64,000 bases of DNA from contig NZ_CP135027.1 of the NCBI RefSeq assembly GCF_039392895.1, positions 248,001 through 312,000 on the forward strand. The letters run 5' to 3'. This DNA is from Buchnera aphidicola (Mindarus keteleerifoliae). Its GTDB lineage: Bacteria; Pseudomonadota; Gammaproteobacteria; Enterobacterales; Enterobacteriaceae. The stretch's first letter is position 1. Each line of letters begins with the position of its first letter. Positions 13,456 to 14,235 of this stretch are shown piece by piece. A program made the position numbers and the translations under genes. The notes under the pieces were generated by a model. It did no database searches, was not told where the DNA came from, and saw nothing but the letters and a program-made list of their open reading frames with translations.

Positions 13456-14235
13456 TTAAACATTATCAAGAATTTTTTTCAAACAAGAGGAATTTCCTAT
13501 TAATATTGAATTTTTTTCTAAAAAATTATTTTTTTCATAAAAATTTCTAATTAATCCACCAGATTCTTGTACTTGCAATATTCCAGCCATATAATAATCT
13601 GATATATTAATTAAATTAAAATAACATAATCCATCTAATCTACCACTAGAAAAATATGCTAAATCTAACATTTTAGATCCTGTGCATCTAAAATATATAT
13701 TTTTAAAATGAAAATTTCTAAATATTTCTTGATAATATAAAATATTTTTTTTACAGTTAAATGGTTGATTTATTCCTATTATTATTTTTTTATATACGTA
13801 ATCGTTATTACATCTAATTCTATAACCATTTAATTGAGCCCCTCTTCCTTTAACAGCAGTAAATAATTCGTTTTTTAACGGATCATAAATTACTGAAACT
13901 TCTAAATTAAAATTTATTATTATTGCAATTGAAATACAGAAATGAGGAAAATTATTTTTAAAATTTTCAATTCCATGCAAAGGATTAATTAACCATTGAA
14001 TTTTCTTAATTTTATTTTTTTTAAAATTTTTGTTAATTTGACATATATAATGCGTAGGGTAAGTTTGAAAAATTATGTTTTTCATTGTTTGATAAGAAAA
14101 AAAAATAGTTTTTTCTATTTTTTTTAAATATTCGGGATTTTTTTTTAAAAAAATGTTTTGACTGTCGAAATCATGAGCAAGAATGGTTCCACCTTGTCTA
14201 ACTGCTCTGATGGCAATGTTTAACATTGGATGCAT
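13456..14235 (-). CDS. suhB: SuhB-like inositol monophosphatase family protein with lost catalytic residues
   Basis: E. coli SuhB is an inositol-1-monophosphatase fold protein that also joins the Nus complex for rRNA antitermination and ribosome maturation. The 259 residues align without gaps with E. coli through the active-site region, but three metal ligands are changed: Glu67 is Ile67, Asp84 is Asn84 and Asp87 is His87 (LINPLHGIENF for VIDPLDGTTNF). Only the fourth Asp, here residue 213, remains. Other conserved blocks are intact (MHPMLNIA, DPLKNELFTAVKGRGAQLNGYR, RCTGSKMLDLAY, AGILQVQESGG). Loss of catalysis with retention of fold suggests that the RNA polymerase or ribosome role is what is selected. 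The frame is uninterrupted. Confidence 0.92.
   Translation of the reverse strand: MHPMLNIAIRAVRQGGTILAHDFDSQNIFLKKNPEYLKKIEKTIFFSYQTMKNIIFQTYPTHYICQINKNFKKNKIKKIQWLINPLHGIENFKNNFPHFCISIAIIINFNLEVSVIYDPLKNELFTAVKGRGAQLNGYRIRCNNDYVYKKIIIGINQPFNCKKNILYYQEIFRNFHFKNIYFRCTGSKMLDLAYFSSGRLDGLCYFNLINISDYYMAGILQVQESGGLIRNFYEKNNFLEKNSILIGNSSCLKKILDNV

Follow-up and report, generated by a model that had tools for sequence, protein, structure and literature searches.

The SuhB protein encoded in this stretch of the Buchnera genome appears to have lost the usual means of binding its catalytic metals, and it is probably now a non-catalytic protein that is kept as what would be a hub of rRNA antitermination and RNA chaperoning. 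The SuhB phosphatase of this genome is most likely dead and the gene is functional, and we infer that the rRNA role is the best candidate for the function that maintains it. The window, which is the whole stretch of DNA that was analysed (64,000 nucleotides), corresponds to G000:C1:248001-312000 and is part of a 551,674-base genome. On the second contig of this genome, the initial 3,000 bases resemble leuA/leuD plasmids; Buchnera accounts for 63 of 101 matched records, the best-covered being the plasmid of Buchnera from Greenidea ficicola (72.8% identity), which places the genome in a Buchnera lineage.

The gene lies on the minus strand, and its neighbours, named by eye, are presumably trpD, the gene of an EamA-like transporter, rlmN, hisS and glyA:

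Window 13456..14235, minus strand: suhB coding sequence, 259 amino acids and stop codon; IMPase-fold, orthologue of E. coli SuhB (PF00459 and NCBIfam profiles, phmmer)

The frame begins with ATG and has no internal stop (ORF reading of the window), as the sequence-only reading had claimed when it described a full open frame. The PF00459 profile gives the protein 94.3 bits (cut-off 27), and the best NCBIfam model is PRK10757 (E. coli-type IMPase), at 184 bits, followed by the next model at 67.5 bits, by HisN at 36 and by CysQ at 33; since the PRK10757 score is under the curated cut-off of that model (332), this is a divergent member of the SuhB group. The best full-length match is to SuhB over CysQ and HisN, and phmmer and structure searches both rank SuhB structures first. 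The alignments used were those of phmmer to PDB chains, in which the match to E. coli SuhB spans the whole protein at an identity of approximately 35%, and those of MAFFT with the E. coli SuhB locus L059. The IMPase/SuhB fold is predicted to be retained in an AlphaFold model (pLDDT 85.9, pTM 0.87; alignment of 56 sequences), whose top match among solved structures is E. coli SuhB 2qfl (Z 31.1, rmsd 2.8, 255 residues aligned), with the SuhB-NusA-AR2 complex 6ib8 (Z 30.5) and the rrn antitermination complex 6tqn (Z 30.3) as further matches. A common fold alone is no proof of function.

Glu67, Asp84, Asp87 and Asp212 of E. coli SuhB are, as we assume, the metal ligands of inositol monophosphatase (IMPase), and Thr89 is presumably the residue that activates the nucleophile, in an Asp44-Thr89 dyad like that of human IMPase. 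The corresponding codons of the window are the following:

14035..14037, minus strand: codon Ile67 (ATT), counterpart of E. coli Glu67, metal ligand lost (MAFFT)
14032..14034, minus strand: codon Asn68, counterpart of E. coli Glu68 (MAFFT)
13984..13986, minus strand: codon Asn84 (AAT), counterpart of E. coli Asp84, metal ligand lost (phmmer, MAFFT)
13975..13977, minus strand: codon His87 (CAT), counterpart of E. coli Asp87, metal ligand lost (phmmer, MAFFT)
13969..13971, minus strand: codon Ile89, counterpart of E. coli Thr89, lost (MAFFT)
13597..13599, minus strand: codon Asp213, probable counterpart of E. coli Asp212, adjoining a two-residue insertion (phmmer pairing)

The sequence-only reading had placed Ile, Asn and His at the sites of Glu67, Asp84 and Asp87, within positions 13970-14040, and this proved right, with all three codons inside that interval. 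The D212 column is ambiguous: MAFFT puts a Tyr there and Asp213 one column off, and phmmer, as second alignment, pairs Asp213 with Asp212; sister sequences read YDN and WDN in this region, and the counterpart of Asp212 is probably kept as the shifted Asp213. The D44 column reads Ile by MAFFT, or Glu by eye, one residue further. The set of ligands of a two-metal IMPase is thus incomplete (Ile, Asn and His at the first three positions, the fourth probably kept), and the Asp44-Thr89 dyad is missing as well, with Ile in place of Thr89 and Ile or Glu in place of Asp44. The congeneric genomes G001 and G002, whose proteins are 77% and 75% identical to this one, read Ile, Asn and Asn at the sites of E67, D84 and D87 in full-length frames, so that the ligand loss is no sequencing quirk. 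Where intact SuhBs are at least 95% invariant, the protein of the window retains 52 of the 79 non-catalytic residues and none of the six catalytic ones (Fisher p 0.0025, or 0.026 with D212 taken as retained). Judging from these residues, the protein is presumably without phosphatase activity.

The loss of ligands is a family-wide pattern, special neither to this genome nor to Buchnera. Of the 285 family genomes in which a match was obtained, 101 had their SuhB ligands scored: 73 lie below 1.0 Mb, which are all the matched family genomes of that size, another 18 fall between 1.0 and 2.5 Mb, and 10 reach 2.5 Mb or more, the larger ones being hand-picked by size and score. All 73 SuhBs of the sampled family genomes below 1.0 Mb (37 genus codes, counted by eye) lack one or more of the four ligands, as do 16 of the 19 rows of 1.0-2.5 Mb (one of these rows is the named record L067) and two of the 10 rows at 2.5 Mb or more, one of these two (G148) being a gene split over two frames; G038, one of the three intact rows of 1.0-2.5 Mb, has already lost D44. 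To judge by their size and kinship, the small genomes with an altered SuhB belong to host-restricted symbionts. All four ligands are kept in 79 of 80 named relatives (the best-scoring 80 among the matches listed), the exception being L067, a secondary endosymbiont of Heteropsylla cubana. The four ligands, D44 and T89 are all kept in 40 of 40 SuhBs from outside the family, which are top scorers among the matches listed (362 of the 369 outside-family genomes matched). Several genomes of roughly 1 Mb are also among the matches from outside the family. The named relatives with an intact SuhB include some symbionts whose genomes are larger, for instance Symbiopectobacterium and Candidatus Pantoea persica, and symbiosis alone is therefore insufficient for ligand loss. 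Left out of these counts were two duplicates (L002, of L003, and L271, of L022), the CysQ loci L001, L006, L007, L132 and L133, and L279-L282 (fragments in G030 and IMPase-family relatives in G097 and G102).

The 91 altered proteins differ in what is left of the active site. Counted by column, they keep none of the ligands in 23 cases, one in 44, two in 21 and three in 3. At least one of E67, D84 and D87 is missing in 90 of the 91, the exception being L135, which is without D212; D87 is still kept in 48 of the 91, and D212 in 18 strictly by column, or in 22 if any Asp between columns 211 and 213 is counted. The commonest replacements are D84N (59/91) and E67K (31/91), and medium-sized genomes show differing partial losses: D84I in G150 and G081, E67K with D87N in G041, and E67G with D84Y in G137. 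Some of the losses do not overlap, since L126 is without E67 only, L135 without D212 only and L146 without D84 and D87, which amounts to three separate events if losses are not reversed, a result for which no tree is needed. On a SuhB tree, the minimum is 3 unordered changes between the intact and the broken state (11 to 24 per ligand), and irreversible loss gives 21 first inactivations; this was a quick tree with long branches, from which the active-site columns were dropped, and both the 3 and the 21 depend on it. The balance tips slightly towards the view that host restriction repeatedly makes the enzyme SuhB a non-catalytic rRNA factor, with at least three inactivations, or about 21 if they are irreversible, in one family and with differing active-site remnants.

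Selection on suhB was estimated by pairwise codon likelihood with our own script; most pairs have a saturated dS, and three of the fits ended at dS values without meaning. The metal-less sisters L004 and L005 have an omega of 0.050 (dS 0.96, 2dlnL 87.7 versus omega=1), and omega=1 is rejected in all 46 symbiont pairs, which are not mutually independent. Omega ranges from 0.045 to 0.37 in the eight symbiont pairs with dS below 1, and from 0.03 to 0.08 in nine free-living pairs. The loss of the metal site under strong purifying selection implies that a non-enzymatic function is being kept. The retention of individual sites was followed at 85 positions with at least 95% conservation among intact SuhBs, a set whose effective diversity is low (3.7 after weighting): the weighted retention is 0.19 for the six catalytic sites, versus 0.67 for the other 79 (permutation p 0.0004). 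When the 85 are ordered from the lowest retention upwards, five of the catalytic sites come between 3rd and 13th place, and D87 is 31st, at 0.53. The lowest-retained sites are A188, R184, E67, T89, D44, E205, E68, G70, V40, T90, W211, D84, D212 and D38, which, by homology with human IMPase, we take to outline mainly the active site, and Y59, W81, N91, Y117, F125, N136, R139, R141, L190, Y194 and E222 are kept near-universally. Uniform relaxed selection over the whole gene, the pattern that the sequence-only reading had named as speaking against it, does not appear; the relaxation centres on the active site.

One genus has a metal-less SuhB in comparatively large genomes, G071 (L160, 3.3 Mb) and G192 (L158, 2.1 Mb), and the pair has an omega of 0.37; with this weaker constraint, they are perhaps at an early stage of host restriction.

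The evidence on the rRNA role comes from the partners of SuhB. Excerpts of PMC6614801 describe K251 and L254 of E. coli SuhB as contacts of the AR2 domain of NusA, and both have kept counterparts in the window:

13477..13479, minus strand: codon Lys253, counterpart of E. coli Lys251, NusA-AR2 contact, kept (alignment; contact from PMC6614801)
13468..13470, minus strand: codon Leu256, counterpart of E. coli Leu254, NusA-AR2 contact, kept (alignment; contact from PMC6614801)

The NusA of this genome is a frame of 515 codons with both C-terminal repeats, so that the counterparts of both contact residues occur together with an AR2 domain. NusB is present (E 5e-35), and a boxA-like AGCTCTTTAAAAA precedes the 16S start motif by approximately 100 nt (p 0.007 on mononucleotide shuffling), which gives this genome a candidate boxA in the 16S leader as well as NusB. 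More widely, a boxA match at a mononucleotide-shuffle p below 0.02 was obtained in 24 of the 28 leaders scored, in a scan in which 51 of 54 genomes had a 16S match and 30 leaders were fetched, two of them not placeable.

The partners were examined in 80 genomes, 11 of which have no intact suhB (among these, the assemblies of G079, G199 and G272 have a completeness of 80-84%, and that of G133 a contamination of 8%). PMC11481867 counts suhB among the ancestrally essential genes of Enterobacteriaceae, and Table 2 of PMC11188193 has it under "Gene lost" for the Buchnera of Calaphidinae and Phyllaphidinae. The earlier proposal that the Nus/ribosome role is the essential one therefore stands only in part: a non-enzymatic function is kept (omega 0.050 in the metal-less sisters), but "essential" is too strong a word, because of these 11 genomes and of the losses in that table. 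NusA ends before AR2 in 7 of the 10 suhB-less genomes that have NusA and in 10 of the 69 with suhB (p 0.0005, with AR2 judged by frame length and the association uncorrected for kinship or genome size). The opposite combination, AR2 without an intact suhB, occurs in G102, G133 and G097. NusB persists in 8 of the 11 suhB-less genomes and boxA in both suhB-less leaders scored (G061 and G186), which means that the rRNA complexes manage there without SuhB.

The contact residues themselves are kept at weighted rates of 0.59 (K251) and 0.61 (L254), the rate of an average site; of the contrast that had been proposed between the NusA interface and the active site, what holds is that the AR2 contacts are kept more than most active-site residues, but they are not kept above the average site. 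Lys or Arg at 251 together with a hydrophobic residue at 254 is found in 41 of 59 AR2-bearing versus 4 of 10 AR2-less genomes (Fisher p 0.085); taken singly against AR2 presence, residue 254 gives p 0.046 and residue 251 p 0.11. In these counts AR2 was again judged by the length of the NusA frame, and G012, G090, G203, G128 and G229, with a full-length frame but only one detected repeat, went in as AR2-bearing. A test on independent pairs, at most three of which lay on supported branches, had no power.

These figures bear on the possibility that SuhB is kept for some other non-catalytic role, for example another RNA-binding or ribosome-linked task. The ten genomes in which suhB persists beside a NusA that stops short of AR2, the persistence of NusB and boxA where suhB is gone, and the p of 0.085 are in its favor, but suhB absence goes with AR2 absence and, according to the excerpts of PMC6614801, SuhB recruitment in E. 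coli depends on an RNA element and not on AR2, so that the loss of AR2 need not end the rRNA role; such a different task is unlikely, although it is the alternative that fares best. In host-restricted lineages SuhB is probably non-catalytic and kept as what we infer to be a Nus/rRNA factor.

Short NusA frames, of 354-453 codons and ending before AR2, occur in G054, G183, G261, G094, G226, G124, G263, G061, G186, G188, G165 and G132; NusA has been shortened in several genera, apparently more than once, and in one genus (g60) all three genomes have a short NusA, and suhB, too, is gone from two of them. The NusB of G103, G284, G212 and G102 covers only model positions of about 40 to 132, in frames of 96-103 codons (with a TAA in G212), as if the protein had been shortened at its N terminus in two genera. 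The NusA match reads through three to four TGA codons in each of G104, G213 and G285, genomes of approximately 300 kb from one genus, which suggests that TGA may be read as an amino acid there. Decaying copies of suhB are a remnant with a stop (G097:C1:48573-48698), a gene split over two frames (G148:C1:2336031-2336800) and a fragmented copy (G030:C1:1325066-1325835) in a genome listed as 49% complete.

A control for the decay of active sites in general is provided by CysQ, encoded by this genome's other PF00459 gene (G000:C1:501019-501798), which scores above the curated TIGR01331 cut-off for CysQ. The CysQ query matched 36 of 80 genomes and yielded 23 full CysQ genes (L164-L186), the rest being matches on SuhB. 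The motifs SEE, DP[LM]DGT and WDxxAG are kept in all 23 loci, and in 21 of the 21 genomes with both genes the CysQ motifs are intact and the SuhB ligands broken. One cysQ match (G205:C1:553775-554512, L167) has a single in-frame TAA; the frame compared is open and its catalytic motifs are intact. It could be argued that AT-biased drift has degraded the active sites of many enzymes and that SuhB is still weakly active, with a rearranged or one-metal site, given that its commonest replacements, D84N and E67K, can be obtained by single G-to-A changes and that D87 is still present in about half of the altered proteins (48/91). The replacements, however, vary between genera and form no new shared set, D44, T89, E205 and A188 decay too, and the intact motifs of CysQ, a member of the same Pfam family, led to the rejection of general drift as the main explanation, which leaves it improbable. 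That suhB is a decaying pseudogene in which no stop codon has arisen so far is less credible still and very improbable, for although the protein shares only about 35% identity with E. coli SuhB, has lost its active-site residues and has relatives in which the gene is absent or broken (the stop remnant of G097, the two frames of G148, the fragments of G030), this reading was rejected as the main explanation on the purifying selection seen in the metal-less sisters (2dlnL 87.7) and in all 46 symbiont pairs and on a matched stretch that is stop-free in all 73 small genomes counted, and it is also opposed by the 52 of 79 non-catalytic invariant sites kept versus none of the six catalytic ones and by the intact predicted fold.

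The preferred explanation, retention of a non-catalytic SuhB for rRNA synthesis, can be put as follows. The SuhB dimer would be the hub of an rRNA antitermination and RNA-chaperone complex that comprises boxA RNA, NusB, S10/NusE, NusA, NusG and S4, a role that in E. coli would be independent of phosphatase activity and for which SuhB would be retained. Within hosts the phosphatase would lose its fitness value and the active site would then decay, largely via replacements within reach of a single G-to-A transition (Asp to Asn, Glu to Lys), and the structural surfaces would stay.

The literature offers several points of contact. According to PMC4807359, IMPase activity is not linked to the growth defect of E. 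coli, and an obvious metabolic need for the SuhB phosphatase is not known in that organism; a metabolic model of Buchnera left suhB out as unconnected to biomass (PMC2649895). The Blochmannia member of the IMPase family has been placed in an inositol pathway (PMC1360075), an example of an annotation on which ligand loss may bear. A search of the open-licence literature on SuhB or inositol monophosphatase in Buchnera, Blochmannia, endosymbionts and pseudoenzymes found, in the parts of the texts available, no report of the loss of SuhB ligands.

E. coli SuhB has two jobs, and which of them matters has so far been argued from few mutants; evolution seems to have separated them several times. Dozens of SuhBs from small genomes, with an incomplete metal site and under purifying selection, are ready-made separation-of-function variants that could be expressed in E. 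coli, and, if the explanation is true, the residues that metal-less SuhBs have conserved would outline the surface on which the rRNA function depends. The conservation of the active site in other relatives (79 of 80 named, 40 of 40 outside the family) suggests that the phosphatase probably matters there; as it is kept almost without exception, it would, on the same explanation, have an unnamed fitness role outside hosts.

The window protein can be compared with three known systems. It shares with E. coli SuhB, which is both an inositol monophosphatase and a Nus factor, full-length orthology (35% identity, with 2qfl as the best structural match) and both AR2-contact residues, Lys and Leu, and it differs from it in having no counterparts of E67, D84, D87 and T89. 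CysQ, the 3'(2'),5'-bisphosphate nucleotidase, has PF00459 in common with it but retains its catalytic motifs. Pseudoenzymes are catalytically dead relatives of enzymes that are kept for a scaffold role, and the window SuhB resembles them in that the fold and the gene are kept and the catalytic residues lost; the difference is that here an orthologue of SuhB has apparently been converted in several host-restricted lineages, whereas the other relatives keep the enzyme.
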